Positions 6,606 to 63,779 of a stretch of 64,000 nucleotides of DNA are shown here, in pieces. The notes under the pieces are model-generated. The model was not told the DNA's origin, did no database searches, and worked only from the letters and a program-made list of their open reading frames with translations. Location of the stretch: assembly GCA_900319645.1 (NCBI GenBank), contig ONPG01000001.1:1-64000 (forward strand). The letters are read 5' to 3'. The position numbers and the translations under genes were made by a program. Position 1 is the first letter of the stretch. Each line of letters opens with the position of its first letter. The stretch comes from an uncultured Bacteroidales bacterium. Its GTDB lineage: Bacteria; Bacteroidota; Bacteroidia; Bacteroidales; Paludibacteraceae.

Positions 6606-6646
6606 TAGTCATTTTTTCATTTGCTCATTTGCTCATTTACCGTCGT
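6606..6646 (-). repeat. Intercistronic low-complexity repeat
   Basis: Repeats of the 8-base word atttgctc, with variants, fill the gap between the DUF4494 gene and the phosphatase-like gene. It belongs to the class of spacer repeats seen throughout the window. Confidence 0.6.
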
Positions 6647-8110
6647 TTATTCAAACAACAGGTTGATGAGTCCGGTGGCATCGATCTTGCCTTGCGGCAT
6701 AGGCCGCAGTGTGCCCGACCAGTAGAGCAACGGCGAGGTGGGGCGCTCGTCTGTGACCCGGTCGATGGTCTGCGAGTCGTTTTGCATGAGTTGCCATCCA
6801 GGCTGGAGCATAAACACCACGTCTCCCATATGGCGCTTGCTGAGCGTAGAAGCCAAGGGCGGGTAGAGCAGGGCTTCGTGGGCTGGCAGGGCTATCTGCA
6901 CCCCCTCGAAATCCATGAGGAAATTGGCTACTTGACGCTGGATGGTTTCCAGGTTGAGGCGTTTTTGCTCGATCAGCGTCCGGTTGAGATAGACCGACTG
7001 TCCGTAGCCTCCGTCCACCCATCGCTCGTGACCGTAGATAGCCATGAGATAGGTGCCGGTAAGAGCCGCTGCCCGGTCCACATTGAAATACTGGATGGGC
7101 ATGTGCAGGTCAGCAAGCGTCTGCGCATCGGTGCCCAACATCGGTCTGCCTACTACCAGAAGTTGGTAGTTCTCGCGTCCTATACGGCGGTCGAGCTGCT
7201 CCATGAGATAGCCTAAGTCCTGATTGAGCCAGAGATACATGTCCTCGTGTTCCGCCGAGGCAATCCGGTCGCTGGTGGCTTTGGGACTGAGCGAGTTGAG
7301 TTGCAGCAGGAGGAGATCCGGCTGCGCGTCCACGCCCAGACGCTCGGATTGCTGCAAGGCCAGTGCCAGTTCGATGACCAGCGTGTTCGCCGTCGGCGTG
7401 TAGGCCAGCACAGGTGCGACCTCGTAGGAGAATCCTTTTTTCTGCTCCTGCGGAGTAGGGCACGAATAGGTTGGGATATCCATTCGGGGTGTCCATTGAC
7501 GTGCCGCGAGGGTAGGAATACGCATGTTGCTATTCTGTTCGTAGGCAGCGGAGGGCAGTCCTTCGCTATACGCCGACGACGCCACCCACTGCTGTGCCTC
7601 GCAATCGAGCCAGCAGCACGCGTTGGCTGCGTGACCTGCCATCAGAACCGTTGTTTCGGGCTGAATACCTACTGCGTAGATCTTAGCGGCAGGCGAGAGC
7701 AGACGCATCCGGTCGCTCAGGGTGCGGCTCAGCAGTGCTTTCGCTGACAGGCAGAGCGAGGTGCCGATACCTTTCGCCGATTCGTCCTCCAGCATCCCAT
7801 GCAGCAGACGGTCACGGCGCAGAAAATATCGATCCATCGTATAGCCGTGTCGGTCCGGCGTCGTTCCTGTCATAAGCGTAGCGGTTGTTTCGTTGCCGCC
7901 ATAGACCTCATGCGGAAAAGCAACAGAGGTCTGGTAGGCCTCTTCGCTCAGCGTGCGGAGTCCGCCTTTCTGCCAATAAGGGCGAAGCATAGCTAAATTG
8001 TCGCTGTCGAGACCGTCCACCACGGCAACCACGGTTAAACGGGACGAAGCGGCAATGCTTAATGAGAAAAGGCTGAGTATCAGCGTACTATATAGATAAG
8101 TCTTGCGCAT
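6647..8110 (-). CDS. Alkaline-phosphatase-superfamily protein, probably lacking catalysis
   Basis: The start at 8110 gives 487 residues with a signal peptide (MRKTYLYSTLILSLFSLSIA), so it should be periplasmic. The N-terminal core of the alkaline phosphatase / phosphodiesterase fold is visible: VVDGLDSD (metal Asp), then GNETTATLMTGTTPDRHG around the nucleophile position. Farther on, where active PafA-like enzymes have an Asp/His pair and a later ADHG motif, this protein has LNSLSPKATSDR and LLVVGRPMLG, so several metal ligands seem to be missing. The gene overlaps the Lnb-like gene by 31 bases. An in-frame upstream start at 8239 is rejected because it would run deep into that gene and lose the signal peptide. 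Confidence 0.75.
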   Translation of the reverse strand: MRKTYLYSTLILSLFSLSIAASSRLTVVAVVDGLDSDNLAMLRPYWQKGGLRTLSEEAYQTSVAFPHEVYGGNETTATLMTGTTPDRHGYTMDRYFLRRDRLLHGMLEDESAKGIGTSLCLSAKALLSRTLSDRMRLLSPAAKIYAVGIQPETTVLMAGHAANACCWLDCEAQQWVASSAYSEGLPSAAYEQNSNMRIPTLAARQWTPRMDIPTYSCPTPQEQKKGFSYEVAPVLAYTPTANTLVIELALALQQSERLGVDAQPDLLLLQLNSLSPKATSDRIASAEHEDMYLWLNQDLGYLMEQLDRRIGRENYQLLVVGRPMLGTDAQTLADLHMPIQYFNVDRAAALTGTYLMAIYGHERWVDGGYGQSVYLNRTLIEQKRLNLETIQRQVANFLMDFEGVQIALPAHEALLYPPLASTLSKRHMGDVVFMLQPGWQLMQNDSQTIDRVTDERPTSPLLYWSGTLRPMPQGKIDATGLINLLFE

Positions 8111-9081
8111 AAATGAATGAAAGGAATAATCAGTAAACGCCATCCGAATCCTACCAGCGGATGGCAAGAGAAAAATGTGAGGAACGTCACGATGAGCAGC
8201 AGCAACGCGTAGATGACATACAAGATACCATCTGCCCAACGGCTGCGTTTGCCCCTTTTGCGGTCATAGACCGACAAGGTGGCGAGCAGCACAAAAAGGA
8301 GCGCCAAGCCGGCATAACTGGTCTTATACCAAGGTACAGGCGCGATGGCGAAAGGCGCAATGTGCTCCGACTCAATGAGCGACGTACCGTCCGCGTAGCG
8401 GGCTTCGCTGAGGTAGAACATCAGTTCCTCCGGCAGAAATAGCCGCTGTTCGCCTGCCATCGGTCGGTCGGCTTTCGGACCGAACAACAGGTTGATCCCG
8501 AAATCCGCCCAAGAGCCTTTGGGTGTATAGTGACGGATAAACTCGCGGTAGGTTTTGCCCTCGGCGCCCTGATAAAGTGACTGAGGTCTCTTCTTGCCAC
8601 CGCGGCTGAGCACCTCCATCAGAATAAAGTAAGGGCGCGTGGCACAGTTGTCAAAAACAAAATTATACAGATATTTGCGGTTGGCGGGGCGGTAGTTCTC
8701 CGCTAAAGCGTCCCAAACCAGTTGCTTGTCTTCCTGCGAAAGACGGAGAACCTGCTCATAAACAGGTCGTTGCGTCTCTTCGTACTCGCGCATGAACCAC
8801 CAATAGGGCGCAGCCCCCAACTCATACCACGTCTCGCCACGGACAAATTTCCAATAGAAATGGTCAGTGTTGAAATCAAAAATGCCGTAGTTGAACGTGA
8901 TATCCATGTCGTTCTGCGGGTCGCAAATGCGCAGCGCCGTGTGTCCGTAGCGCGCGTAGAGTTCCTCGCCAGGTGAGCAGGTAAGCAACGATATACGTGC
9001 CTCCTCGCTCAGCGTTTGTGCGCAGAGTGTAAGCGACAGCAAGACTGCCACAAGGAGAATATATAGCCGTTTAAAGCACAT
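8080..9081 (-). CDS. DUF4105 / Lnb N-terminal periplasmic domain membrane protein
   Basis: The start at 9081 gives 333 residues: an N-terminal signal/anchor (CFKRLYILLVAVLLSLTLC), a periplasmic DUF4105 domain, and three hydrophobic C-terminal helices. The domain shows the conserved histidine and cysteine of the family in LYARYGHTALRI and FDNCATRPYFI. The founding member Lnb is a lipoprotein N-acyltransferase, and Lnb-like proteins carry a catalytic Cys/His pair. Here the gene sits among lipid-modifying genes (PAP2, GlsA/GlsB-like), which fits a lipid or lipoprotein acyl-transfer role, but this is inference. The start overlaps the PAP2 stop by 11 bases. Confidence 0.78.
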   Translation of the reverse strand: MCFKRLYILLVAVLLSLTLCAQTLSEEARISLLTCSPGEELYARYGHTALRICDPQNDMDITFNYGIFDFNTDHFYWKFVRGETWYELGAAPYWWFMREYEETQRPVYEQVLRLSQEDKQLVWDALAENYRPANRKYLYNFVFDNCATRPYFILMEVLSRGGKKRPQSLYQGAEGKTYREFIRHYTPKGSWADFGINLLFGPKADRPMAGEQRLFLPEELMFYLSEARYADGTSLIESEHIAPFAIAPVPWYKTSYAGLALLFVLLATLSVYDRKRGKRSRWADGILYVIYALLLLIVTFLTFFSCHPLVGFGWRLLIIPFIHLCARLIYIVR

Positions 9082-9709
9082 AACAGATAATCGCGTAAGG
9101 CAGGAAAGTACACATGATTCCCAACAGCCATCCAGCCACCACCTGTGCGGGCGTGTGGGCATTAAGATAAAGCCGTGCGCACATGAGTATCAGCGAGGCC
9201 GCCAGCCATACTGCCAGCATCGGCCACGTCGGTATAGCCCCTATGCCCATGCAAAAACTCAATACTCCGCCGAACAAGCCGCCGAATCCGGTCAGGTGTG
9301 CGCTGATTTTCCACCAATGGTTGATTACCGTCACCAGCCCGATAGCTACGGTGGCGCCGACCGCCACCGTCCCGATATAGAAGGGCACGTGAAGAATAGA
9401 AACCAGCAGGTAGGTCCAGAAACAAAACCCCAGCGCCGCATACATATAAGGATACGTGCGCTCGCGCGCGTTAAAAATCTGCATGCTGCTCACTTTGCCT
9501 TTGCGGACAAGCGTCCAGATAGCCGTAGCCGGCAGGATGCACGTCAGGAGCAGCGTACCGAGGACCGCCACCAGTGTCCAGATAAGCGGTACCGGGTGCT
9601 CCGGAGTGGAGTAGGCATAGCTGAAGAGCGCCATTCCGTAGGTGGGCACAAACAGAGGATAGAGTACAATGCTCAAGATCTGGGATACTATGTTCAGAAA
9701 ATGTCTCAC
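9071..9709 (-). CDS. PAP2-family membrane phosphatase-like protein
   Basis: A 212-residue protein with about six hydrophobic helices. Degenerate PAP2 motifs are visible: the basic NARERTYPY segment, KISAHLTGFGG (matching PSGH), and ARLYLNAHTPAQVVAG (matching SRxxxxxHxxxD, with Gln for the final Asp). The family removes phosphate from lipid phosphates such as undecaprenyl pyrophosphate or phosphatidate. The departures from consensus make activity uncertain. The stop overlaps the Lnb-like start, and its own start overlaps the rpoN stop by four bases. Confidence 0.75.
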   Translation of the reverse strand: MRHFLNIVSQILSIVLYPLFVPTYGMALFSYAYSTPEHPVPLIWTLVAVLGTLLLTCILPATAIWTLVRKGKVSSMQIFNARERTYPYMYAALGFCFWTYLLVSILHVPFYIGTVAVGATVAIGLVTVINHWWKISAHLTGFGGLFGGVLSFCMGIGAIPTWPMLAVWLAASLILMCARLYLNAHTPAQVVAGWLLGIMCTFLPYAIICYVL

Positions 9710-11193
9710 AGTGTTTTGCGAAGTCGAGCTACAGGAATTCCGAGTATATCGCGGTATTTGGCAACTGTGCGCCGCGCAATGGGGTAACCATGTTCGCGCA
9801 GAGCGTCCACCAGTTGCTCGTCGGTCAGCGGAGTACGTTTGTCCTCACCGTCCACCAGTTCCTGCAGGATTTTTTTGATCTCACGTGTGGAAACCTCATC
9901 TCCGTCGCTGTTGGTCATCGATTCGGAGAAGAAGTATTTGAGCGGGTAGATACCGAACCGTGTCTCTACGTACTTGCTGTTGCTCACGCGCGAGATAGTG
10001 GATACATCGTAGCCGGTGCGGTCGGAGATGTCCTGCAAAATCATTGGTTTGAGGCTGGTTTCCTCGCCATCCAAAAAGAAATCGTATTGGAACTTGAGAA
10101 TAGCTGTCATCGTTTTCATGAGCGTCTCGTTGCGCTGATGAATTGCATCGATAAACCATTTAGCGGCATCCAGTTTGGAGCGGATGAACTGCGCTGCCTG
10201 GCGTGTCTCGGCGTTCTGCGGCATCGCGCTGTAGTTGGCGAGCATGTCGCTGTATTCGCGGCTCACATGCAACTCAGGGATATCGCCCGTGTTGAGGACG
10301 ACAAACAGTTCGTCATCGCGGTTCTCAATGGTGAAATCCGGAATAATGGTCTCGCGTTGCGTCTCGTAAACCGAGCCGGTGAAGGCGTTGGCGGGTTTCT
10401 GGTTGAGGTGGATAATCTCTTGTACTGCCTGCTGGAACGCCTCGTTGGTGCAGCCGATGCGCTGGATGATTTTGTCAAAATGGTGTTTGGAAAACGCGTC
10501 GAAATAGTGGCTAAGGATCGTGGTAGCCAGTTGTACCGGTTCGGTCTGCGGCTTGCGTTTGAGCTGCGTGAGCAGACACTCTTGCAGGTTGGCACTGGCA
10601 ATACCGGCAGGGTCGAACTGCTTGATTTGCTGCACAATAGACTCCATCTCCTGATCGGTTACCTCTATCTGCTCCTGGAACATCAGATCGTCAACCAGTT
10701 GCTCCGTGGTGCGCCTGAGATAGCCGTCATCGTCAATATTACCAAGCACCCATTTGGCTATGTGCCTTTGGGGTTTGGTCATCTTGGTCAGGTAGATCTG
10801 CGCTTTCAGTTCCTCAATCAGACTGCTGCCTCCAATGATAGGCACTTCGCGGCGGTCTTCGTCCGCGGGGTTGTACTGCTGGCGAAGCATGTAACTCGGC
10901 GTTTCGTCGTCCGACACGTACTGCTCGTAGTTAAAATCCTCGTTTTGCAGCGGGTCGTGTCCGGCATCCTCGTACTCCTCGCCATAGCCTCCGTACTCCT
11001 CGTCCAGGCTCCCGGTCTGTTCGGTCTCGTCACGTCCTTCTTCGAGCGCCGGATTTTCCTGCAACTCCTCGTTGATACGTTTGCTTAGCTCGATGGACGG
11101 CAGTTCGAGCATGCGAATCACTTGAATCTGTGTGGGCGACAACTTGGTTGTCTGCGTCATCGTTTGATTAAGACCGAAACTTTGCATAGCCAT
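9706..11193 (-). CDS. rpoN: RNA polymerase sigma-54 factor
   Basis: This 495-residue protein has all three sigma-54 regions: a glutamine-rich N-terminal activator region (LNQTMTQTTKLSPTQIQVIRML), an acidic region II (about residues 50-110), the core-binding domain, and the C-terminal RpoN box ARRTVAKYRDILGIPVA, which contacts the -24 promoter element. It directs core polymerase to -24/-12 promoters that need an AAA+ activator. It heads a run of overlapping envelope-lipid genes on the same strand. Confidence 0.97.
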   Translation of the reverse strand: MAMQSFGLNQTMTQTTKLSPTQIQVIRMLELPSIELSKRINEELQENPALEEGRDETEQTGSLDEEYGGYGEEYEDAGHDPLQNEDFNYEQYVSDDETPSYMLRQQYNPADEDRREVPIIGGSSLIEELKAQIYLTKMTKPQRHIAKWVLGNIDDDGYLRRTTEQLVDDLMFQEQIEVTDQEMESIVQQIKQFDPAGIASANLQECLLTQLKRKPQTEPVQLATTILSHYFDAFSKHHFDKIIQRIGCTNEAFQQAVQEIIHLNQKPANAFTGSVYETQRETIIPDFTIENRDDELFVVLNTGDIPELHVSREYSDMLANYSAMPQNAETRQAAQFIRSKLDAAKWFIDAIHQRNETLMKTMTAILKFQYDFFLDGEETSLKPMILQDISDRTGYDVSTISRVSNSKYVETRFGIYPLKYFFSESMTNSDGDEVSTREIKKILQELVDGEDKRTPLTDEQLVDALREHGYPIARRTVAKYRDILGIPVARLRKTL

Positions 11194-11232
11194 AGATTTT
11201 TAAATTACCGGTTAACAATTACCAATCACCAA

Positions 11233-12360
11233 TCATTTAATGAGTTCGAGCACGGCGGAACTGATATAGTTCAGTTGCTCCTCGTCCAGCTCGGTGTGCA
11301 TAGGCAGCGAGAGCACGCATGAGGCAAGTTTCTCGGCTACCGGGAAATCACCGTCTTTGTAGCGCGGATCGAGATATGCTTTCTGCTGGTGCAGCGGAAC
11401 GGGATAGTATATCATAGCGGGAATTCCGCGTTCCGCCAATTGTTCACGCAACTGGTCTCGGTCGGCTCCTGCCACGCGGAGTGTGTATTGGTGGAACACA
11501 TGGGTGGAGTTGTTTTGACGACCTGGGATTAGCAGTTTGCTGTTGCCTGCGAACGCTTTGTCGTAGCAGGCGGCAGCACGCTGACGGGCGGCAATATACT
11601 CGTCCAGATGCGGCAGTTTAGCGTCCAGCACGGCGGCTTGAATACTATCCAGACGGCTGTTGACACCGATCATTTCGTGGTGGTAGCGAACGACCATGCC
11701 GTGGTTGGCGATAGCGCGCATGCGCGCTGCCAGTTCGTCATCGTTGGTGAAGATAGCACCGCCGTCGCCGTAGCAACCCAGATTTTTCGAGGGGAAGAAA
11801 CTGGTGCAGCCGATGTGACCGATAGTGCCCGCCTGCTTGGTCTCGCCGTTGGAGAAAGTATATCTCGCACCGATAGCCTGACACGCGTCCTCCACTACGT
11901 AGAGGTGGTGCTCCTGTGCCAGTTGCATGAGTGGCTCCATGTCGGCGCATTGGCCGAACAGATGGACAGGCACGATGGCTTTGGTGCGTGGCGTGATAGC
12001 GCGGCGTACGGACTCAAGATCCATATTCATCGTCTCCCAGTCCACGTCCACTACAACCGGAGTCAGGCCTAACAATGCCACCACTTCGGCAGTGGCAATA
12101 AACGTGAAGGTAGGAGTGATCACTTCGTCTCCGGCTTTCAAACCAAGTCCCATCAGCGCTATCTGCAAGGCATCAGTGCCGTTGCCGACTGGTATCACAT
12201 GCTTGGCGCCGGTGTATTGCTCCAAGTGTGCTTGGAAATCCGTTACTTTCTTTCCTTTGATGAACGCAGCGGAGTCAATCACCTCCTGAATACCTGCGTC
12301 AATCTCTTGTTTGATGTGTTGATACTGCGTTTGCAGGTCAACCATTTGAATCTTTTTCAT
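11233..12360 (-). CDS. DegT/DnrJ/EryC1-type sugar aminotransferase
   Basis: This 375-residue PLP enzyme of the DegT/StrS family transaminates keto-sugar nucleotides for surface polysaccharides. Visible features are GNGTDALQIAL (phosphate binding), VVEDACQAIGA (the Asp that contacts the pyridine ring), SFFPSKNLGCYGDGG (the PLP lysine) and NSRLDSIQAAVL. It overlaps the ybbR stop by four bases (12357-12360), so the two are probably coupled. No other polysaccharide genes lie next to it, so the sugar substrate cannot be inferred. Confidence 0.92.
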   Translation of the reverse strand: MKKIQMVDLQTQYQHIKQEIDAGIQEVIDSAAFIKGKKVTDFQAHLEQYTGAKHVIPVGNGTDALQIALMGLGLKAGDEVITPTFTFIATAEVVALLGLTPVVVDVDWETMNMDLESVRRAITPRTKAIVPVHLFGQCADMEPLMQLAQEHHLYVVEDACQAIGARYTFSNGETKQAGTIGHIGCTSFFPSKNLGCYGDGGAIFTNDDELAARMRAIANHGMVVRYHHEMIGVNSRLDSIQAAVLDAKLPHLDEYIAARQRAAACYDKAFAGNSKLLIPGRQNNSTHVFHQYTLRVAGADRDQLREQLAERGIPAMIYYPVPLHQQKAYLDPRYKDGDFPVAEKLASCVLSLPMHTELDEEQLNYISSAVLELIK

Positions 12361-14762: not shown

Positions 14763-15155
14763 ATGGAAAATCGGAAGTTTGAAGAGCGTAAAGAGCCGGA
14801 AATTGTGTACAGCCGTTCCGTAAAAGCCGGCAAGCGAATTTACTATCTGGATGTACGCAAAGCGCGTAACGAGGATTTGTATCTCTGTATAACGGAGAGC
14901 AAACGCCGCCAGGCGGGTGAGGACGAGCAACCCTCCTTCGAGAAGCACAAACTGTTTCTTTACAAAGAAGATTTTGCACGTTTCACTGAGGGACTGAAAG
15001 ATGTGATCGGCTACGTGCAGGAGCAGTTGGGTGACATCGAAGAGCGACCCGAGTGGAAACCCGAGCCGGCAGAAGTGGCGGAAGCCTCTCAGGCTGTTGA
15101 GGCAGAAGAAAAAGAAGAGTCTAAAAAGAAAGGCTTCTTCGGTATCTTCAAATAA
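14763..15155 (+). CDS. DUF3276 / PUR-family nucleic-acid-binding protein
   Basis: A 130-residue protein with an N-terminal PUR-alpha-like domain (VYSRSVKAGKRIYYLDVRKAR, DLYLCITESKRR, FLYKEDFARFTEGL) and an acidic, lysine-ended tail (EEKEESKKKGFFGIFK). DUF3276 proteins are small Bacteroidota PUR-domain proteins that bind DNA or RNA; the precise job is not known. The ATG at 14763 is chosen because the promoter lies just upstream. The 3' end overlaps the convergent coaBC gene by 8 bases. Confidence 0.88.
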   Translation: MENRKFEERKEPEIVYSRSVKAGKRIYYLDVRKARNEDLYLCITESKRRQAGEDEQPSFEKHKLFLYKEDFARFTEGLKDVIGYVQEQLGDIEERPEWKPEPAEVAEASQAVEAEEKEESKKKGFFGIFK

Positions 15156-16356
15156 GTGCGTCGATGATGCCTGCGGCTATGTCTGCCTTGCTCTGAAGGG
15201 GCAGGGTAGAATGGTCGCCGTCGGCAGTAAGAATAGTGACGCGATTCGTGTCGGTTCCAAAACCGGCTCCTTTGTCGCGCAAAGAATTGAGGATAATAGC
15301 ATCCATGTGCTTGCTTGTGAGTTTGCGAAGCGCATTGGTTTGCTCGTTTTGAGTCTCCAGGGCAAAGCCGATCAGGCGTTGCCCTTTTTGTTTGCTTGCA
15401 CCCAGTGTTGCTGCTATGTCCGGCGTGGTGCGCAGGGCAAGCGTCATGTGGTCCTGCCCGGGTTGTTTCTTGATTTTCTCGGAAGCCTCTTCCGACGGCG
15501 TGAAATCCGCCACGGCAGCGCAGAGGATGGCGGTGTCGGCTTCTGGCCAGACACTTGTGGCAGCCTTGTACATCTCTTGGGCGGTTTGTACGTCCATGCG
15601 GTGAACGCGTCCGTCAATGTCATGAATGTGCTCGGTGGTAGGACCGCTGACGAGCGACACTTCTGCTCCTCGGCGGACACATTCGCGCGCGAGGGCAAAA
15701 CCCATTTTGCCGGTGGAGTAGTTGCTGAGGTAGCGCACAGGGTCGATTTTCTCCTGGGTCGGGCCGGCTGTGATGAGAATATGTCTGCCCGTCAAGGTCT
15801 TAGGTGTCAGCACATCCTGAACGGCCTCGAACAGAAAATCAATCTCCGGCATTCGCCCTTTGCCGCTGGTGCCGCACGCCAGCGCGCCTGTATCCGGCTC
15901 CAGCACGGTGAAATGCTCCCACGAGCGGAGGGTGGCAATCGCTTTTTGGGTGGCGGGGTTCTCCCACATCTTGTCGTTCATAGCCGGAGCCAGCACTACC
16001 GGTTTGCGTGCTGCGCACGAACAGAGCGTGGTAGTGAGGGCGTCGTCGGCTATGCCGGCTGCTGTTTTGGCAAGCACATTGGCGGTAGCGGGCGCCACGA
16101 GCATTACATCCGCCCATTCGGGCAAAGAAATATGCTCGGTGGCGTGCTCGTTGATGGCAGCAAACACATCCGAATAGACGCTATGACCGGAGAGTGTCTG
16201 AAGAGTCATTTCCGTAACAAACTCCAACGCGTGACGAGTGGTCGTCACGCGTACTTCGGCGCCTGCCTTGGTGAAAAGGCGGATGAGTTCGGGAATTTTG
16301 TAGGCTGCTATCCCGCCGCTAATACCTATTAATATGTGCTTCCCCTGAATTGTCAA
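15148..16356 (-). CDS. coaBC: CoaBC: phosphopantothenoylcysteine decarboxylase / phosphopantothenate-cysteine ligase
   Basis: A bifunctional 402-residue enzyme of coenzyme A synthesis. The N-terminal flavoprotein decarboxylase shows GISGGIAAYK, the PAMN motif and the Cys-containing CGTSGKGRMPE loop. The C-terminal ligase begins HILITAGPTQEKIDPVRYLSN and includes NYSTGKMG. The start codon is TTG at 16356, inside a heptad repeat; no ATG lies near enough to give the family N-terminus. The gene follows rpoZ and bamD in one operon. Confidence 0.95.
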   Translation of the reverse strand: MTIQGKHILIGISGGIAAYKIPELIRLFTKAGAEVRVTTTRHALEFVTEMTLQTLSGHSVYSDVFAAINEHATEHISLPEWADVMLVAPATANVLAKTAAGIADDALTTTLCSCAARKPVVLAPAMNDKMWENPATQKAIATLRSWEHFTVLEPDTGALACGTSGKGRMPEIDFLFEAVQDVLTPKTLTGRHILITAGPTQEKIDPVRYLSNYSTGKMGFALARECVRRGAEVSLVSGPTTEHIHDIDGRVHRMDVQTAQEMYKAATSVWPEADTAILCAAVADFTPSEEASEKIKKQPGQDHMTLALRTTPDIAATLGASKQKGQRLIGFALETQNEQTNALRKLTSKHMDAIILNSLRDKGAGFGTDTNRVTILTADGDHSTLPLQSKADIAAGIIDALI

Positions 16357-16371
16357 TTGTCAATTGTCAAC
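16348..16371 (-). repeat. Heptad repeat carrying the coaBC start
   Basis: The 7-base word aattgtc is repeated three times. Read on the minus strand it is ttgacaa, and one copy provides the TTG start codon of coaBC. Confidence 0.85.
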
Positions 16372-16706: not shown

Positions 16707-16757
16707 AACTATTTACGATTTAATTATTTACAATTTGGTCATTTACAATTTAATCAT
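16707..16757 (-). repeat. Intercistronic repeat between bamD and rpoZ
   Basis: Alternating words such as tttacgattta and tttacaattta with a 15-bp spacing. On the minus strand it reads as TAAATnGTAAAT-type sequence, the same orientation relative to transcription as the other spacer repeats. Confidence 0.75.
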
Positions 16758-17561
16758 TTATTCGTTCGTCACCTTGCGTACTTGCACCATCATTTTGTCC
16801 GCTTCCTTGCGGTGGCGCGAGTTGGGAAATTCGGTGATAAAATTGTAGTACTCGTCCTGTGTTTCGCGTGCGCGGTCGAGTTTGAGGTTCTCAAACGAGT
16901 TGATCATCTGCTGGTATTTGGCTTGCAGGATCAGCCAACTGAAATCCTCCTGGTATTTGTTGCTCGGGTAGTTCTTGAGCGCATTCTTGCTGACGATCTC
17001 GCAACTGAGGTAGTTGTTGCCGAGGTAGGTGCCCAGATTGTAGTACAAGCGTGCGTTGTAGAGCTCTTTCAGCGCCAGTTTGTCGTACATCTCGCTCATC
17101 TCCTGGTAGGCCTGTCCGGCGTACGGACTCTCAGGGAATAGTTCCACAAATTGGGTGAATGCCTCGATGGCGTTGCGGGTTATCTCTTGCTCCAAACGCG
17201 GATCGGGACTATCCAGATATTGGCAATGACCAAGCTGGAAATAGGCCTCGGTAGCGTATTTGCCTTTGGGATAATTGCGGGTATAGGCGCGGTAGTACTC
17301 GGTAGCCGAAGCGTAGTCTTTCTGTCCCATGTAGCAGCGTGAGAGGTAAGCCAGCACGTCCTCGGAACGCTCGGTACCTTTGTAGTAGGTGGAGACGTCG
17401 TCCAGCAGCGTCTGGGCTTTCACGTACTGCTTGTTGTTGAAATACCGCAACGCCGCCTGATATTTCTCCTCGGGGTCGCGTGATTTCAACAGTTTCTGGT
17501 ATTCACCGCAGCCGGAGAGCAAGACCGATAAAAGTAATATGAACAGTCCTTTTTTCTTCAT
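16758..17561 (-). CDS. bamD: Outer membrane assembly lipoprotein BamD
   Basis: The ATG at 17561 gives 267 residues: a lipoprotein signal with lipobox LSGC (cysteine near residue 18), then tetratricopeptide repeats (YQAALRYFNNKQYVKAQTLL, LAYLSRCYMGQKDYASATEY, AYFQLGHCQYL). BamD is the TPR lipoprotein of the BAM complex that inserts outer-membrane beta-barrels. The promoter at 17580-17611 leaves a leader of about a dozen bases. First gene of bamD-rpoZ-coaBC. Confidence 0.93.
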   Translation of the reverse strand: MKKKGLFILLLSVLLSGCGEYQKLLKSRDPEEKYQAALRYFNNKQYVKAQTLLDDVSTYYKGTERSEDVLAYLSRCYMGQKDYASATEYYRAYTRNYPKGKYATEAYFQLGHCQYLDSPDPRLEQEITRNAIEAFTQFVELFPESPYAGQAYQEMSEMYDKLALKELYNARLYYNLGTYLGNNYLSCEIVSKNALKNYPSNKYQEDFSWLILQAKYQQMINSFENLKLDRARETQDEYYNFITEFPNSRHRKEADKMMVQVRKVTNE

Positions 17562-22331: not shown

Positions 22332-22376
22332 ATGAAATCGTAATAAATCGTAAATCGTCAAATCGTAAATCATTTT
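22332..22376 (+). repeat. Intercistronic aaatcgt repeat before yicC
   Basis: Several copies of the 7-base word aaatcgt fill the gap from the mnmE stop to the yicC ATG. TAA triplets occur in more than one frame. Confidence 0.85.
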
Positions 22377-23279
22377 ATGCTTCTTTCTATGACTGGTTAT
22401 GGCAAATCCGAAAGCCAAATGCGCGGACGCACGCTGGTTTGTGAAGTCCGTTCGCTGAACTCCAAATCGATAGATATGAGTGTTCGTTTGCTCACGGCGC
22501 TTCGTGCGCGTGAGTTGGATTTGCGTACGCAGGTGGCCAAACGTGTGGAGCGCGGTAAGGTCGATCTGGCCATCTACATGCAAGACACCAACGAGCCGTC
22601 TTCGCTGAATAACCGTAACACTTTTGCGCCTCTCAACTGGGAAGCTGCCAAGACCTATGCGCAGCAGTATATTGAGAATTTCGGTGGCGAAGTGCCTGCG
22701 GAAGTGATGGCATCTATTCTTCGCCTGCCGGACGTAGTAAAAATACAGGAAGACAGTTCCGACCTTACGGACGAAGAGTGGGCGGCTGTACAGACGCAAC
22801 TCGACAAAGCGCTGGACGCTTTTGTGGCTTTCCGTACACAGGAAGGAGCCGCACTCGAACGGATGTTCAACGAGAAACTCGACGCCATAGCCGATTTGCT
22901 GGCGCAGGTGGAGCCGTTTGAGAAGGGCAGGGTAGCCAAGATCAAAGAGCGCCTGGAGCAGAACCTTGCCCAGTTGAGCGAACAGACACAGGCGCAGATT
23001 GACCGCAACCGTCTGGAGCAGGAGATGATTTATTACCTCGAGAAACTGGATATTACCGAAGAGAAAGTGCGTCTCACCAACCATATCAAATACTTCCGTG
23101 AGACGATGGCGGGTAGCGGTGAAGGAGTGGGCAAAAAGCTCGGTTTTATCGCGCAGGAAATGGGACGCGAGATCAACACGCTCGGTTCCAAATCCAACCA
23201 GTCGGAGATGCAGATTATCGTGGTTAAGATGAAGGATCTGCTTGAGCAAATCAAAGAGCAAGTGCTGAACGTGCTATAA
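22377..23279 (+). CDS. YicC-family endoribonuclease-like protein
   Basis: A 300-residue protein with the YicC N-terminal signature SMTGYGKSES and EVRSLNSKSIDMSVRL, and the C-terminal DUF1732 region (LDITEEKVRLTNHIKYF, GKKLGFIAQEMGREINTLGSK, MKDLLEQIKEQVLNV). E. coli YicC is an RNase that can degrade small RNAs such as RyhB. The yicC-gmk pair is a widely conserved neighbourhood. Confidence 0.93.
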   Translation: MLLSMTGYGKSESQMRGRTLVCEVRSLNSKSIDMSVRLLTALRARELDLRTQVAKRVERGKVDLAIYMQDTNEPSSLNNRNTFAPLNWEAAKTYAQQYIENFGGEVPAEVMASILRLPDVVKIQEDSSDLTDEEWAAVQTQLDKALDAFVAFRTQEGAALERMFNEKLDAIADLLAQVEPFEKGRVAKIKERLEQNLAQLSEQTQAQIDRNRLEQEMIYYLEKLDITEEKVRLTNHIKYFRETMAGSGEGVGKKLGFIAQEMGREINTLGSKSNQSEMQIIVVKMKDLLEQIKEQVLNVL

Positions 23280-23300
23280 ATAACCAATTACCAATAACCC

Positions 23301-31603: not shown

Positions 31604-31683
31604 GGATTACTGGATTTCTGGATTACTGGATTTCTGGATTACTGGAATTCCGGATTACTGGAATTCTGGATTACTGGAATTCC
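31604..31683 (-). repeat. Five-copy 16-bp tandem repeat
   Basis: Five units of 16 bp starting with ggattactgga at 31604, 31620, 31636, 31652 and 31668. Units 4 and 5 encode the folC C-terminus (KYWNSSNPEFQ) and its stop; units 1-3 lie between folC and the nitroreductase gene. Confidence 0.95.
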
Positions 31684-32990: not shown

Positions 32991-33050
32991 ATTTACGATT
33001 TGACGATTTACGATTTGACGATTTACGATTAGACGATTTACGATTTGACG
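32991..33050 (-). repeat. Four-copy 15-bp repeat between dnaE and folC
   Basis: Four 15-bp units (atttacgatttgacg, one with a single change) from 32991 to 33050. Read on the minus strand they show aaatcgt words, matching the plus-strand spacers before yicC, tsf and the glycosyltransferase gene. Confidence 0.95.
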
Positions 33051-33057
33051 AGTTATT

Positions 33058-37190: not shown

Positions 37191-37560
37191 AGGGTGGGCG
37201 ATTTTTTTTGTGCGAAGAAGGATGAGCGGCGAGTCAGATTCGGTATAAAAAGAAGAAAGGACGCAGGGCTGACGTCCTGCGCACTCGACAAAAAATGGCC
37301 AAAACTATTGTTTTAGGGGTGTATTCGAGGTTTTAGGGATGGTTTTCGGGTCGTTTCTCTCCCGTTTCTCTCCCCTTTCTCTTCCGATAATCACCCATGA
37401 ATCACCCATGAATCACCCATGTATCACCCATGAATCACCCATAGTCAGCAAAAAACTGACTGCTACTTCACGGGCTTAAAAATGGGCACTTGGCGTGGTA
37501 GGAGGATTCTTTTGAGAAACGGGATAAAATCGCGCATTTCTCAAAAAAAATGCCCGTTTA
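37191..37560. other. 370-bp stretch without a gene
   Basis: No credible reading frame is seen. It holds short inverted words (aggacg...cgtcct and cgcagg...cctgcg at 37258-37280), runs of tttctctcc, and the 11-bp tandem repeat listed separately. It separates the divergent dnaE and glycosyltransferase genes. Confidence 0.6.
37389..37443 (+). repeat. Five-copy 11-bp tandem repeat
   Basis: Five contiguous 11-bp units (aatcacccatg, with two single changes). The word atcacccat also occurs in a low-complexity patch inside the GSCFA gene (48771-48779). Confidence 0.95.
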
Positions 37561-37592: not shown

Positions 37593-37599
37593 CACGCTA

Positions 37600-37676
37600 A
37601 ATCGTAAATCGACAAATAGAAAATCGCAAATTGAGAAATAGAAAATCGTAAATCGAGAATCGACAAACCGTAAATA
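37600..37676 (+). repeat. Leader repeat before the glycosyltransferase gene
   Basis: Imperfect repeats of aaatcgtaaatcgac and aaatagaaaatcg with a spacing near 15 bp fill the whole untranslated leader between the promoter and the ATG at 37679. Confidence 0.8.
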
Positions 37677-38647: not shown

Positions 38648-38660
38648 AAACTGAAAACTG

Positions 38661-39878: not shown

Positions 39879-39902
39879 AAGTTGAAAACTGAAAACTGAA
39901 AG
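39872..39902 (+). repeat. ctgaaaa repeat after the helical-protein gene
   Basis: Copies of tgaaaac and ttgaaag occupy the gap between convergent genes and read in the direction of the upstream gene. Confidence 0.8.
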
Positions 39903-41307: not shown

Positions 41308-41338
41308 TTTTCAGTTTTCATTTTTGAGATTTTCGGCG

Positions 41339-45153: not shown

Positions 45154-45858
45154 ATGTACCTCTTTTACTGTCCAGACATAGAGAAAAGACAAACGCTCTC
45201 CGAGGAGGAGAGCGGGCATTGTGTGCGAGTGCTTCGTTATTCCGTGGGAGACGAGATTCTCATCACAGACGGCAAAGGAACGACTTATACGGCGCGAATA
45301 ACCAATCCGCATTCTAAGCATTGCGATTTTGAGATTATCTCGCGTGAGAAGCAGGAACCGCACCACCGGTTTCACCTCCACATAGCGATAGCGCCGACGA
45401 AGAATATCGAACGCATGGAATGGGCTATCGAGAAATGTGTGGAGATAGGGGGGGATGAGATAACACCGCTGCTATGCCGTTTTTCGGAACGGAAAACGCT
45501 TCGCACGGACCGACTCGAGAAAATCATTCTCTCTGCCGCCAAACAGTCCCTTACACCATACTTGCCGGTATTGCATGAATTAACACCCTACGACACGTTC
45601 ATTCGCGAGCAGGCTCAGAAAAATCAGCAGAACTTCATCGCCCATTGTTACAAAGAGGACAAGCGTGTTCTCAAGGACGAAATAGAGCGGGGGAGGGATG
45701 TACTGGTGTTGATTGGCCCGGAAGGCGATTTTAGCGAGAAAGAGGTGGCGGACGCTTTGGCTTTGGGCTTTATTCCCGTCAGTCTGGGAAACAGCCGTCT
45801 GCGCACAGAGACTGCTGCTATCGTCGCCTGCCACACGGCGGTACTCATAAACGAATAA
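45154..45858 (+). CDS. rsmE: 16S rRNA m3U1498 methyltransferase
   Basis: The ATG at 45154 gives 234 residues. It is a SPOUT methyltransferase with an N-terminal PUA-like domain (YLFYCPDIEKRQTLSEEESGH, split) and the C-terminal knot with LVLIGPEGDFSEKEV and VSLGNSRLRTETAAIVA, which bind SAM. An in-frame TTG at 45130 would add eight residues with no family match. Confidence 0.95.
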   Translation: MYLFYCPDIEKRQTLSEEESGHCVRVLRYSVGDEILITDGKGTTYTARITNPHSKHCDFEIISREKQEPHHRFHLHIAIAPTKNIERMEWAIEKCVEIGGDEITPLLCRFSERKTLRTDRLEKIILSAAKQSLTPYLPVLHELTPYDTFIREQAQKNQQNFIAHCYKEDKRVLKDEIERGRDVLVLIGPEGDFSEKEVADALALGFIPVSLGNSRLRTETAAIVACHTAVLINE

Positions 45859-45916
45859 TTGATAATTGATAATTCTTAGCCCTAACGGGCATGATTATTT
45901 TCGACAAGCGAAAATA

Positions 45917-46546
45917 TTGATAATTGATATTTTGTCTATAGATACCGACATATTGCTTTGGATTAACGGCCATTACACGGAATGGCTGGATACGTTCATG
46001 TGGTACGTCAGCCGTTCCTCGACATGGATCCCGCTCTATGTGCTGCTGGTGGGGCTGATTGTCTTGAAATACCGAAGCTGGAAAACTGTCCTGCTCATTC
46101 TGTTAGGATTTGGAGTGGCGGTCGGTTTGGCGGATTTCACTACCAGCGGCATCATCAAACCCTTGGTTTGCCGTCTGCGTCCGACCCACGAACCGGCTTT
46201 GGAAGGAATGGTACATCTCGTGAACGGTTACACAGGCGGATTGTATGGTTTTTGCAGCAGTCATGCCGCTAACACGATGGCGTGCGGATTGCTGTTCAGC
46301 CTGCTCTATAAAAACAAATATGCCACCACAGGTCTGATGATCTGGGTGGCTTTGAACTGCTACAGCCGCATGTATCTGGGCGTACACTATCCCGGAGATA
46401 TACTCTGCGGATTGCTTATCGGCGCTCTGCTTGCGGCTCTGGTGTATGTTGTATTGGCTCGTTGGGTGCTAACTGCCGGGTCTCCCTCGGAGCTACAAAA
46501 TTCGCGCCACGAGGACGACGGGGCTGCTCGGCCGGGTGGTTCATAA
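45917..46546 (+). CDS. PAP2-family phosphatase
   Basis: About 209 residues with five or six membrane helices and intact PAP2 motifs: KPLVCRLRP (KxxxxxxRP), GFCSSHAANT (PSGH-like) and SRMYLGVHYPGD (SRxxxxxHxxxD). Likely substrates are undecaprenyl pyrophosphate or other lipid phosphates. No ATG fits: the start is taken as TTG at 45917, inside an attgata repeat, with TTG at 45932 as an alternative. The last 43 codons overlap the convergent gene at 46416-46841 by 131 bases, and the final ~25 residues look non-native. Confidence 0.85.
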   Translation: MIIDILSIDTDILLWINGHYTEWLDTFMWYVSRSSTWIPLYVLLVGLIVLKYRSWKTVLLILLGFGVAVGLADFTTSGIIKPLVCRLRPTHEPALEGMVHLVNGYTGGLYGFCSSHAANTMACGLLFSLLYKNKYATTGLMIWVALNCYSRMYLGVHYPGDILCGLLIGALLAALVYVVLARWVLTAGSPSELQNSRHEDDGAARPGGS

Positions 46547-46862: not shown

Positions 46863-48095
46863 ATGCCATTTAGTCCCGAAATAGAATTAGCCAAGCGACT
46901 TTATTTTTCTCAGCAAGGCGAGAACCGGCAGTCACGCCCTGCTGTACGCGTGGCGTTGGCGGGAATGATGATAGGTGTGATGGTGATGGTGGTGACTATC
47001 TGCGTGGTGGTGGGCTTCAAGCAAACGATCACCCGTCAGGTGGCGGGCTTCGGAGCGCATATACAGGTCGTTTCGTTTGACAACAACAACACATACGACC
47101 TCCAGCCGATTGAGGTCTCCGACTCTTTGTTGGCCCTGTTGGGCAGCTATCCGCACGTAGCGAATGCCGCTCCTTTCGTGACCAAACCCGGTATGCTCAA
47201 GACCGACAGCTCTTTTCACGGCATAGTACTCAAGGGAACCGACTACTGGGATTTTTTTGCGCGTAACATCCGCGAGGGAGCTCTGCCCTCCAAACCGCAG
47301 GAAGTGCTGGTGTCTCAGCCGGTTGCCAAGTCGCTTGGCCTAAGCGTGGGAGATGCCGTGAATGCGTATTTCGTGGACGAGACGGATGTGCGGGCAAGAC
47401 GTTTCGTGATAAGCGGTCTGTACGAAACGGGTTTCGGACAGTTTGACGAGCTGTTTGTGCTCACGCCCTTGACTACTGCGCTCCGCCTGCAAGGCTGGGA
47501 CGAGCATACTTACTCTGGAGTGGAGATATTGGTGGACGACCTCTCTTGCCTGAACGAGGTGGCGGACCGTATCTATTTCGCTACCGTCAATCATCTGGAC
47601 GAAGAAGGCTATCACACCTATTATGTCCAGACGCTCCAGGAGCAGAATCCGGCTGTTTTTGCGTGGCTCGACCTGCTGGACATGAATGTGGTGGTTATTA
47701 TAGTGCTTATGCTCTTAGTGGCGGGATTCAATATGGTCTCGGGTTTGATCATCCTTATTCTGGATGGCATTCAGTTGATTGGAATCCTCAAAGCGCTCGG
47801 GGCTGACAACCGTTTTGTCCGCCGTATTTTCCTTACCCAGGCTTTGATGCTGATTGTCAAAGGACTGCTCTACGGAAACGTGGTGGGACTCGGCTTGGTG
47901 GCTATCCAGTATTTTACCAATCTGATTCCTCTGGAGGCGGCTACGTATTATGTGAGCTATGTGCCTGTCACGTTTGCCTGGGGATGGATAGTTGTGCTCA
48001 ACCTGCTGACTATTGCTGTCTCCATGCTGGTTCTGTTGCTGCCGTCTATGATCATCAGCCGCATCAGTCCGGCAAAGGTCATGCACTTTGAGTAA
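46863..48095 (+). CDS. LolC/LolE-type ABC permease
   Basis: A 410-residue membrane protein: an N-terminal helix (VALAGMMIGVMVMVVTICVV), a MacB-like periplasmic domain (about residues 60-270) and three C-terminal helices of the FtsX type (VVIIVLMLLVAGFNMVSGLI, split family motif ILKALGADNRFVRRIFL). LolCE with LolD releases lipoproteins from the inner membrane for transport to the outer membrane. No ATPase partner is adjacent, so another FtsX-family role is possible. Confidence 0.88.
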   Translation: MPFSPEIELAKRLYFSQQGENRQSRPAVRVALAGMMIGVMVMVVTICVVVGFKQTITRQVAGFGAHIQVVSFDNNNTYDLQPIEVSDSLLALLGSYPHVANAAPFVTKPGMLKTDSSFHGIVLKGTDYWDFFARNIREGALPSKPQEVLVSQPVAKSLGLSVGDAVNAYFVDETDVRARRFVISGLYETGFGQFDELFVLTPLTTALRLQGWDEHTYSGVEILVDDLSCLNEVADRIYFATVNHLDEEGYHTYYVQTLQEQNPAVFAWLDLLDMNVVVIIVLMLLVAGFNMVSGLIILILDGIQLIGILKALGADNRFVRRIFLTQALMLIVKGLLYGNVVGLGLVAIQYFTNLIPLEAATYYVSYVPVTFAWGWIVVLNLLTIAVSMLVLLLPSMIISRISPAKVMHFE

Positions 48096-48159
48096 TTGAC
48101 AATTGATAAGTGATAGTTGATAGTTAGTAGTTGTTTAGTTGTTTATTGGTCATTCAAGA

Positions 48160-50731: not shown

Positions 50732-50793
50732 TTTGTCTATTGTCTTTTAGCAGGCTTGCCTGCGGTCTTTTGTCTTTGAGCGAAGCAAGTCTT

Positions 50794-51246: not shown

Positions 51247-51265
51247 AACTTTCAGTTTTCAGTTT

Positions 51266-52267
51266 TCAGTTTCCAACCGCTTTCTGGTGGTTGATAACAG
51301 GGTTGTTGTACATCTCGTATAGTTTCTCGCGCAGGAATGCTTCGTCTTTGTTGGGGATGTCTATCAGGGCGATCCGGCTCTCTATATATGCCTCAAAATC
51401 CGTGCCACGGTCGAATATCTCATATCCCATATGGATGTGACGGTCTATGATGTCGCATATATGTTGCGCCTGTTCACTATGGGGTTGCGTGCGATATTCG
51501 GGGTGAGCCGCCAGCATGACATCAATCTCGGGATTGATACTGGGTGTGAGGCGATAGACCACGCGTCCTTTGCGGCCGTGAATACCGGTTGCCATCGACT
51601 CCACGTCGTCCCGTTTAGTCTTGCGCCAGCGGGGATTGTCGCGTTTGAGCTGCATCTCACGGGCTTTGAGGTAGTCGCACGGGTCGTATTCATAGGAGAT
51701 ACTTACCGGGCAGATATTCAGGTCTTTGATTGCCTTGTAGAAATCCGGGCAATCCATCGTCAGCATGTGGAGCACAGAGGCTTGCGTGAGGTCGTTACTG
51801 TCCTTGGCACGTCCTTCGCGTTGGGCGAGCCAGATGGATTTATGGCGTGTACGCAGATGGCGGATATACGCGGACAGTTTCTTGGCGTTCTCCAACTGGG
51901 CATGTGCTCCGCAACCGCGTTTGACGGCAAAGCAACGGTTGAAACGCATCAGCACTTCTATCCATTTCTTGGCGAACAGGTTATCGCCTACGCCCATGTA
52001 CGGACGGATGAAATAGCGGGTTCGGAGCAGGTAGGATAACCAGGCAGCGTCCATGACGATGTCGCGATGGTTGGTCATGAAGAATGCACCATGACGGATG
52101 TCTTTCTCTATTTGCTTGCGGTCGCCCAAGTAGTCCAGACGAAGACCGTCCGTCGTCTTGTATTGGAGGTATTGCAAATACGGGAATACGAGCAGAAAAT
52201 CCGTGAACGGCAGGATGGCTGCCGTGTGATAGCACGCTATGTCCTTATATATATTTAACGGTTTCAA
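51266..52267 (-). CDS. PlsC-type acyltransferase
   Basis: About 334 residues from a proposed TTG at 52267 (MKPLNIYKDIACYHTAAIL). The acyltransferase motifs NHRDIVMD (His and Asp) and QREGRAKDS (matching EGT/EGR) are clear. A longer frame to 52354 would add residues translated from the taaatcg-type spacer and overlap the next gene, so it is rejected. It probably esterifies a glycerol or lysolipid, but the substrate is unknown. A second acyltransferase of this superfamily lies at 5333-6169. Confidence 0.85.
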   Translation of the reverse strand: MKPLNIYKDIACYHTAAILPFTDFLLVFPYLQYLQYKTTDGLRLDYLGDRKQIEKDIRHGAFFMTNHRDIVMDAAWLSYLLRTRYFIRPYMGVGDNLFAKKWIEVLMRFNRCFAVKRGCGAHAQLENAKKLSAYIRHLRTRHKSIWLAQREGRAKDSNDLTQASVLHMLTMDCPDFYKAIKDLNICPVSISYEYDPCDYLKAREMQLKRDNPRWRKTKRDDVESMATGIHGRKGRVVYRLTPSINPEIDVMLAAHPEYRTQPHSEQAQHICDIIDRHIHMGYEIFDRGTDFEAYIESRIALIDIPNKDEAFLREKLYEMYNNPVINHQKAVGN

Positions 52268-52307
52268 GATATGTATTATTTTACGATATTTACGATTTAC
52301 GATAGTC

Positions 52308-52664: not shown

Positions 52665-52667
52665 TTA

Positions 52668-52710
52668 CCAATTATCAATTGTCAATTATCAATTGTCAAT
52701 TATCAATTAC
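52668..52710 (-). repeat. Heptad repeat between the C1 peptidase and IMPACT genes
   Basis: Alternating caattat and caattgt words, seven bases each. On the minus strand it reads attgataattgac, as in other transcript-oriented spacers. Confidence 0.92.
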
Positions 52711-55064: not shown

Positions 55065-55068
55065 AAAT

Positions 55069-55147
55069 CAATTATCAATTGTCAATTATCAATTATCAAT
55101 TATCAATTATCAATTGTCCATTGTCCATTGTCCATTGTCCATTGTCC
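55069..55147 (-). repeat. Long heptad repeat spanning the kinase 3' end
   Basis: About eleven contiguous 7-base units, first caattat/caattgt words and then cattgtc words. On the minus strand the first units encode the end of the cytidylate-kinase-like protein; the rest is the spacer before prfB. Confidence 0.95.
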
Positions 55148-62723: not shown

Positions 62724-62739
62724 TCGAAACTACAATCCA

Positions 62740-62779: not shown

Positions 62780-62903
62780 GGTTGCCTAAAGCGCGCGTGC
62801 GTGCTTGTGCGTATATTTATAATGTATTATGCGCATGAAGAGCATACCAAAATCAACGGATATTAATCAAATAACTAAACAAACATTAAACATTTCAATC
62901 AAA

Positions 62904-63734
62904 ATGAGAACTAATTTTGATCAACTTCTCGAGGCTGGCGCACACTTTGGTCACCTCAAACGCAAATGGAATCCCGCTATGGCTCCTTACATCTACATGG
63001 AGCGTAACGGCATCCACATCATCGACCTCAACAAGACTGTTGTGAAAGTAGAAGAGGCTGCAGAGGCTCTCAAGAACCTCGCTCGTAGCGGACGCAAAGT
63101 GCTGTTTGTCGGCACCAAGAAACAGGCTCAGGAGGTAGTAGCCGCTCACGCACAGGAAATCGGCATGCCGTATATCACCGAGCGTTGGGCCGGTGGTATG
63201 CTTACCAACTTCCCGACTATCCGCAAGGCTGTCAAGAAAATGGGTCAGATCGACAAGATGATGACCGACGGCACCCTGGAGAACGTCAGCAAACGCGAGA
63301 AACTGCAAATCACCCGTCAGCGTGAGAAACTGGAGAAGAACCTTGGTTCTATCGCAGACATGACTCGTCTCCCGAGCGCAGTTTTCGTAGTGGACGTAAT
63401 GGAGGAGCATATCGCAGTGGCAGAGGCTAACCGCCTCGGTATCCCTGTTTTCGGTATTGTGGACACCAACTCCAACCCCAACAACATCGATTTCGTAATC
63501 CCTGCTAACGACGACGCAACCAAGTCGATCGACGTGATCCTTGGCGCTGTTTGCGATGCAATCAAGGAGGGACTCGAAGAGCGCAAAGTAGAGAAAGCAG
63601 ACGAGCAAGCTGCTGAAGCTCAGGCTGATGCAGAGGCTCCCGCTCCCAAAGAGCGTCGTCAGCGTATCCGCAAAGCTGCTCCCAAAGCAGAGGCTGAGAA
63701 AGTAGCTGAAGCTAAGGAAGAGGCTGCTGAATAA
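62904..63734 (+). CDS. rpsB: 30S ribosomal protein S2
   Basis: The ATG at 62904 gives 276 residues: FDQLLEAGAHFGHLKRKWNP, GIHIIDLNKTV, RKVLFVGTKKQAQ, ERWAGGMLTNFPTIRK, DTNSNPNNIDFVIPANDDA. The C-terminal 45 residues are an acidic, Ala/Glu/Lys-rich extension, common in the phylum. It is followed by tsf, the usual order. Confidence 0.98.
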   Translation: MRTNFDQLLEAGAHFGHLKRKWNPAMAPYIYMERNGIHIIDLNKTVVKVEEAAEALKNLARSGRKVLFVGTKKQAQEVVAAHAQEIGMPYITERWAGGMLTNFPTIRKAVKKMGQIDKMMTDGTLENVSKREKLQITRQREKLEKNLGSIADMTRLPSAVFVVDVMEEHIAVAEANRLGIPVFGIVDTNSNPNNIDFVIPANDDATKSIDVILGAVCDAIKEGLEERKVEKADEQAAEAQADAEAPAPKERRQRIRKAAPKAEAEKVAEAKEEAAE

Positions 63735-63779
63735 TAATCGTAAATCGTTAAATCGTAAATCGTAAAATCGTAAATTATT
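63735..63779 (+). repeat. aaatcgt repeat between rpsB and tsf
   Basis: Five copies of the 7-base word aaatcgt or near variants fill the gap and end right before the tsf ATG. TAA triplets appear repeatedly in the reading direction. Confidence 0.92.

Follow-up and report, generated by a model that had tools for sequence, protein, structure and literature searches.

Directional short tandem repeats in the gaps between genes of an uncultured Bacteroidales bacterium

Tandem arrays in the window

The stretch analyzed in the current work, called the window, is 64,000 nucleotides (nt) long and comes from contig ONPG01000001.1 of a Paludibacteraceae-type Bacteroidales metagenome genome (GCA_900319645.1, labeled G000; 2.64 Mb, 48 contigs, 84% completeness). 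Many gaps between its genes contain tandem arrays of short words, most often of 7 or 8 nt, and three of these words, TAAATCG, TGAAAAC, and TAATTGA, run in the sense direction of the adjoining genes far more often than against it. The nearest relatives by rpsB (n = 37, 81-94% identity) are uncultured Bacteroidales/Paludibacteraceae metagenome genomes, many of rumen or gut origin. Tandem Repeats Finder (TRF) gave 59 rows in the window, and Pfam supplied the assignments of many neighboring genes.

TAAATCG arrays occur on both strands. On the plus strand, they precede yicC (22335-22371), lie in the leader 5' of a GT2 glycosyltransferase gene directly after a TAnnTTTG promoter-like box (37598-37675), and fill the rpsB-tsf gap of 63735-63779 (63736-63775); tsf extends beyond the end of the window and was identified from its N-terminus. 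On the minus strand, a TAAATCG array of 7/8-nt units (32991-33055) is located between dnaE (33058-37140) and a Mur-ligase/folC-type gene (31655-32983), called folC in the original prediction and found by Pfam to encode Mur-ligase domains. A mixed TAAATATCG/TAAATCG array (52251-52304, minus strand) lies at the gap 52268-52307.

TGAAAAC arrays also occur on both strands. In the plus-strand array at 38633-38661, one TGA terminates the glycosyltransferase gene and the end of the array overlaps the next ATG. The minus-strand array at 51250-51272, before a cytidylyltransferase-like gene, provides the upstream stop codon. A TGAAAAC-type array (41296-41334, minus strand) occupies the 5' region of a minus-strand gene ending at 39907, and a plus-strand array (39883-39901) lies in a convergent gap, after a stop codon and before no start. 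TAATTGA arrays are found before the PAP2 gene 45866-46546 (45855-45874, plus strand) and before a release-factor gene (55068-55146, minus strand), where the array enters the end of a cytidylate-kinase-like gene; the release-factor gene, earlier named prfB, encodes PCRF and RF-1 domains according to Pfam. In a TAATTGA/CAATTGA array before a UPF0029 gene (52665-52709, minus strand), one unit is the stop codon of the C1-peptidase gene.

Other words fill further gaps. Minus-strand arrays include an 8-nt array with sense word GCAAATGA (6609-6638) in the co-directional gap 6583-6646; ATTGGTG (11216-11235) at the gap 11194-11232, upstream of the sigma-54 gene 9706-11193; AATTGAC (16348-16370), overlapping the start region of coaBC (15148-16356); a 15-nt array of AAATGATTAAATTGT (16711-16760), which extends to the stop codon of the YfiO-type gene upstream (called 16758-17561); and an 8/16-nt array of AGTAATCC (31604-31682), which continues across the stop codon that ends the Mur-ligase/folC-type gene. 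On the plus strand, AATAACC (23279-23299) fills the gap 23280-23300, and 7/8-nt arrays of TTGATAA, TTGATAG, and TAGTTGTT (48088-48145) precede a GSCFA gene.

The original prediction, made from the sequence of the window, had reported tandem words before yicC, tsf, the glycosyltransferase gene, folC, PAP2, prfB, and coaBC and at three TGAAAAC sites, all of which TRF confirms. The placement of two arrays relative to genes had to be revised: the TGAAAAC array at 39883 lies in a convergent gap, and the array assigned to the C1-peptidase side is upstream of the UPF0029 gene. Rfam gave no match at the gathering threshold in the window, so that a known structured RNA family was rejected as the identity of the repeats.

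Density and period of the arrays

The density of arrays was estimated from the window and 20 evenly spaced 20-kb stretches (464 kb, 313 genes in total). The positions of these stretches were picked without regard to repeats, from long contigs already known from the TAAATCG match list. Genes were called with a simple hexamer model of our own, so individual starts and neighbors may be wrong. Gaps of 12-1000 bp were scored as containing an array at a TRF score of at least 40 and a period of 6-18. Arrays were present in 71 of 216 gaps, whereas in 30 dinucleotide shuffles the number of such gaps averaged 2.6 and never exceeded 6, so the repeats are denser than in shuffled sequence. Of the 42 co-directional gaps measuring 40-80 bp, 23 contained an array.

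Periods of 7 (77 rows) and 8 (42 rows) were the commonest among 295 mostly non-coding TRF rows, and period 11 had 38. In co-directional gaps, self-match peaked at lags of 7 and 8; the peaks of divergent gaps were at lags of 11 and 20-22. Thus, the 11-nt arrays, such as that at 37389-37442, look like a separate class.

Direction of the arrays relative to genes

The whole genome was searched for pairs of TAAATCG 0-2 nt apart and for two successive copies of TGAAAAC or TAATTGA. The searches gave 50, 46, and 49 matches, respectively, and the reversed patterns 0, 2, and 5. After merging by flanking DNA, 107 distinct arrays were obtained (32 TAAATCG, 40 TGAAAAC, and 35 TAATTGA). In co-directional gaps, the ratios of sense to antisense arrays were 28:0, 22:3, and 23:5, or 73:8 when pooled (binomial p = 3e-14, with arrays of one family not independent of each other). 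The remaining TAAATCG arrays were three in divergent gaps, all directed toward the right-hand gene, and one inside a called gene. For TGAAAAC, five were divergent, four convergent, two inside an opposite-strand gene, and four lacked a neighbor. For TAATTGA, five were inside opposite-strand genes and two were called convergent, one of which is the window array before PAP2, scored in this way because the gene caller overlooked the PAP2 gene at 45866.

The direction of TAAATCG was also scored across species. In 97 arrays from seven species of the genus, one of them (G002) represented by 11 of 17 matches, the ratio in co-directional gaps was 79:2. Beyond the 79 arrays read with both neighbors (++), six were in divergent gaps (-+), two were antisense to both neighbors (--), six were inside genes in sense and three in antisense, and one lacked a neighbor; none of the 97 fell into the convergent class. 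One of the two antisense cases lies immediately before a tRNA gene, in the tRNA sense. With strand bias genome-wide and an excess over shuffles, neither of the two outcomes that the original prediction had named as contrary to it is seen in this genome.

Some arrays adjoin genes of other kinds or lie within genes. The genes for tRNA-Thr and tRNA-His directly follow TAAATCG arrays and a tRNA-Arg gene follows a TGAAAAC array, and each of these arrays is oriented as its tRNA (L236:1476-1489; L264 of G056; L241). Called genes containing TAAATCG arrays were seen at L305, L310, L304, L313, and L155; by eye, the arrays of L155 and L305 are stop-free in frame, and the proteins of L304 and L313 are orthologs from two species.

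Junctions of the arrays with stop and start codons

The arrays often extend from the upstream stop codon, which may belong to the array, and end a few nt short of the next start. An upstream gene was taken to have its stop codon in an array unit when it ended at position -3, -10, or -17 relative to the array start. This was so for 25 of the 79 TAAATCG arrays in co-directional gaps and for 15 of the 29 TGAAAAC arrays that have an upstream sense gene. In the density sample, the heptamer made of the stop codon and the following four nt was repeated at unit distance in 17 of 39 array gaps versus 8 of 59 non-array gaps. This heptamer recurred in 36 of 128 co-directional gaps; shuffled sequences gave a mean of 10.6 and a maximum of 19.

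By their sequence, repeats of TAAATCG, TGAAAAC, and TAATTGA contain sense stops in all three frames. In 17 of 39 array gaps versus 13 of 59 non-array gaps, the first 45 nt sufficed to close all three frames (p = 0.027), a modest effect in the direction of the frame closure proposed in the original prediction. As a descriptive comparison, all-frame closure had a frequency of 23% in flipped arrays and 29% in shuffled ones. Closure of no frame at all was seen in 8% of arrays versus 1% of shuffles.

On the start side, 82 TAAATCG leaders were compared. The distance from the last A[AC]AT to the start was most commonly 3 nt (12 leaders), 4 nt (15), or 6 nt (18), and 55 leaders had a distance of 3-7 nt. 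Peaks of A occur at -6 to -9, -13 to -17, and -21 to -25, and the spacer length modulo 7 is non-uniform (p = 0.0009, ortholog pairs included). TTTG and TAnnTTTG are boxes of Bacteroidetes-type promoters. Promoter-like boxes of these kinds precede some arrays, for example just 5' of 37598, and TAnnTTTG is present within 75 nt upstream of 13 of the 97 TAAATCG arrays; at locus L316 of G002, a promoter-like box is located after the array. Determinants of initiation named by Baez et al. (PMC6847099) include nt -3, -6, -12, and -13, A at -3 being positive.

Variation of the words among species

The rpsB-tsf gap was compared in 38 species. It measures 1-2 nt in 12 species, 25-50 nt in 24, and more than 100 nt in 2. 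Periodicity of 7/8 nt (p < 0.05) was detected in 15 of the 24 gaps of 25-50 nt, six of which contain TAAATCG and nine of which contain other words: TTTTTAA-like words, ATTAATT, CAAATTT, TTGAAAA, AAATGGTAAATGAAC, and one mixed word. The gaps of L038 and L040 are identical, and both are among the nine without significant periodicity. These length classes and periodic gaps agree with the slippage-driven spacer growth suggested in the original prediction, but independent slippage alone leaves one observation unexplained: 13 arrays of the fetched G000 DNA have in common a 27-mer, built of units 7-7-8-5 and present at 14 sites.

TAAATCG arrays are also more alike within a species than between species. 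The shared fraction of non-consensus 8-mers was 0.059 within and 0.037 between species (85 arrays), a difference of 0.0225, and the largest difference among 500 permutations was 0.0129. Orthologs carrying a TAAATCG array in two or three species formed 11 clusters, comprising 24 of 91 downstream proteins from the seven species, whose genomes are incomplete.

Stretches from ten relatives, with the contigs of G007, G182, and G061 chosen from match lists, contained further words, and some species had few or zero arrays. No co-directional gap with an array was found among nine in G028, eleven in G108, and six in G063, and G008 had no co-directional gap to score. TAAATCG was rejected as a phylum-wide word, since two successive copies occur in only 28 of 296 genomes of the phylum sample, mostly in 1-3 copies. 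A reversed control word, GCTAAATGCTAAAT, reached up to 108 copies per genome in genus g20 (G079, G108, G127, G144, and others) and was not detected in the searched genomes of the window genus, which suggests that it is another lineage-specific heptad. The 80 kb sampled from G108, a member of g20, contained no GCTAAATGCTAAAT pair.

Evolution of the spacer arrays

The density of the arrays, the direction of three words, the sharing of stop codons, the filling of gaps, the differing words at one gap, and the similarity within species are observations; from them we infer slippage, copying between spacers, and a role as leader. The explanation favored here, with about an even chance of being correct, is that the arrays are spacer satellites, specific to a lineage and located in transcribed gaps, whose sense orientation is maintained because they serve as leaders that bear stops and are rich in A. 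Slippage and unequal recombination would rapidly lengthen a spacer, copying of the word among the spacers of one genome would spread and homogenize it, and the flanking coding sequence would bound the growth of each array. Read in sense, an array would close upstream frames, having a stop in every unit and a unit length that is not a multiple of three, and would give the A-rich leader used by Bacteroidetes ribosomes without a Shine-Dalgarno sequence. It is proposed that the sense direction is retained for these reasons and that, because such a demand on the spacer is generic, the word itself can change. If so, the intercistronic DNA of these genomes would be no random leftover but a fast-evolving directional satellite that gives stops and leaders to ordinary genes, such as tsf, the release factor, yicC, and the neighbors of dnaE, and would offer a measurable system for the concerted evolution of very short bacterial repeats.

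A number of observations weigh against this explanation. Copying between spacers is deduced from common sequence rather than observed, and binomial p values overstate the directional bias because arrays within one family are not independent. Among the array words in co-directional gaps of the density sample, 17 of 46 have no sense stop; the rpsB-tsf words are T-rich in L033 and L052 and stop-less in L044. Two TAAATCG arrays, one of them in G000, precede tRNA genes, which have no start codon. In the mixed sample, the start phase was marginal; for periods of 7-7.5, the fraction of nulls was 0.03-0.06. The accessibility of start sites, proposed earlier as a benefit of the repeats, received no support and was rejected: the predicted unpaired probability was 0.536 for 39 arrays versus 0.529 when shuffled (p = 0.40) and 0.503 when flipped (p = 0.06), and 0.515 for 71 non-array gaps.

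Two octad families bear on the same question. CTCGTGAT was found 3 times in sense and 7 times in antisense, without significant direction, although its sense reading carries TGA; ATATCGA, which has no stop in either reading, was found 7:3, also without significant direction. The CTCGTGAT counts rest on loci from 30 of 35 matches (15 arrays) and the ATATCGA counts on loci from 30 of 67 (17 arrays). The three words and the two octad families differ in direction when pooled (73:8 versus 10:10, p = 0.0002). Thus, the earlier claim that direction follows the genes stands for three words and finds no significant support in these 8-nt families, and the stop rule is not general; as a universal rule it is not upheld by CTCGTGAT, whose TGA occurs in one direction only.

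The composition of the gaps was compared for 70 arrays, present in seven of the eleven sampled genomes. A exceeded T in the sense strand at a ratio of 50:15 in array gaps and 85:32 in non-array gaps, and sense stops exceeded antisense stops at 37:12 and 62:40, a weak excess of array over non-array gaps (p = 0.10). General asymmetry of gaps therefore explains part of the direction, and a universal A-rich rule was rejected, given the equal bias of non-array gaps and the T-rich tsf words. In viral contigs, where genes were taken greedily as the longest open reading frames (ORFs), no word was significantly directional: sense to antisense ratios were 6:3 for TAAATCG, 12:24 for TAACTGA (52 arrays from 80 of 104 stretches), 10:14 for TAATTGA, and 4:5 for TGAAAAC (34 arrays from 35 of 36 stretches). 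All six sense TAAATCG arrays of these contigs are within 30 nt of a start. The idea that a heptad word alone forces direction was rejected on these results.

The equal A bias of non-array gaps, the lack of a folding benefit, the octads without significant direction, and the many locus-specific words of relatives are all consistent with the main rival, in which slippage arrays are neutral filler accumulating in unconstrained spacers, and their direction mirrors an A-rich, stop-rich sense strand and the removal of harmful cases. This rival appears rather unlikely. TAAATCG has an excess of A over T of only one base in seven and still shows a ratio of 79:2, with none of its 97 arrays classed as convergent; the common 27-mer in 13 arrays and the phase of the arrays to the start codon are likewise not what filler predicts.

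A more specific reading, which appears doubtful, takes the heptad as an iterated, slippage-proof translation leader. The pitch of 7 nt equals the distance between the positions -6 and -13 that tune initiation in Bacteroidetes, so that gain or loss of whole units would keep the register of the A-boxes and the stops in every frame. Families would then be spread and replaced as a directional leader part tolerant of copy number, and not as the site of a regulator.

Improbable, too, is a regulatory RNA site, in which the words bind an RNA-binding protein (bS1, cold-shock, or CsrA type) and the genes form a regulon, an idea that corresponds to MacGregor's suggestion for TAACTGA. Arrays a few nt before starts, their direction, and the phased A-boxes would be expected of such sites; differing words across species at one gap and several unrelated words within one genome would not, nor perhaps would the mere 11 ortholog clusters that the 91 downstream proteins yielded, in which no theme was evident by eye. 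Least probable are mobile small dispersed repeats, each word family being a non-autonomous element with a preferred orientation of insertion into transcribed spacers. The 27-mer at sites with unrelated flanks, the arrays in open frames inside genes (e.g., L155 and L305), the shared element of five copies that TAATTGA repeats adjoin, and the same words in viral contigs speak for this idea; the varying length of the arrays and their grading into degenerate copies speak against it.

Comparison with known repeats

Short tandemly repeated repetitive (STRR) heptads of heterocystous cyanobacteria are heptanucleotide tandem repeats in non-coding DNA. To our knowledge, no gene-direction rule or stop-codon sharing has been described for them; they are set apart here by description.

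The original prediction had found no described family of this sort. One exists: TAACTGA direct repeats are known from marine Beggiatoaceae, some Cyanobacteria, and five Bacteroidetes, among which F. litoralis has 14 sets and Paludibacter propionicigenes has 2 (MacGregor 2015, PMC4679880). Like the present arrays, they are 7-nt direct repeats, mostly intergenic and immediately 5' of start codons, mainly forward in the Beggiatoaceae genome, and with forward stops in all three frames. Reverse copies inside ORFs and target genes without a functional pattern are further likenesses, and in Cyanothece indels occur in 7-nt steps. In the Microcystis sample, the repeats were not mainly forward. By position, direction, and frame closure, the arrays of the window are of the TAACTGA kind. 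Two successive copies of TAACTGA itself were not found in this genome and were found in 10 of 61 genomes of the genus, at low count.

The differences lie in the words. Where that paper follows one word, several words are present here, 7- and 8-nt units are mixed, and the word varies with species at one orthologous gap. TAACTGA repeats were interpreted there as possible protein-binding sites, perhaps horizontally spread; this regulator model does not fit the turnover of words seen here, and the generic model would take its place for TAACTGA if the satellite explanation is true.

Tandem repeats of Borg archaeal elements are comparable in evolving rapidly, arising independently, and occurring both between genes and in ORFs (PMC9879509). 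They are enriched in A on the gene strand, and their units are multiples of three in ORFs and mostly not in intergenic regions. They differ in having longer units (18-21 nt in examples), perfect copies, and a location on archaeal extrachromosomal elements, and dispersed word families are not among the features described in the consulted portions of that source. Among the papers listed by literature searches, which covered few subscription journals, there was no other description of such repeats in Bacteroidales/Paludibacteraceae. Several words per genome, the strong direction, turnover of the word at one orthologous gap, and species-specific homogenization are new.

Other short repeats

Besides the AATCACCCATG array of the window (37389-37442), 11-nt arrays in divergent gaps include AATCACGCTAT at L012:11266-11310 and L016:13111-13155. 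With a period near the helical repeat of DNA, they are possibly DNA-level elements.

A common element of 45-60 nt (AATTCTTAGCCC..GGGCACGATTATTTTCGACAAGCGAAAATCTTGATAATTG) has five copies in the fetched DNA (L251:1510, L254:1579, L257:1540, L010:18756, and L016:18059), four of which adjoin TAATTGA repeats. It may be similar to repetitive extragenic palindromes (REP) or miniature inverted-repeat transposable elements (MITE). Short hairpin-like palindromes such as GCAGCCTTTGGCTGC were seen by eye among A-rich short repeats in the gaps at window positions 50732-50793, L007:9339-9400, and L020:14887-14978.

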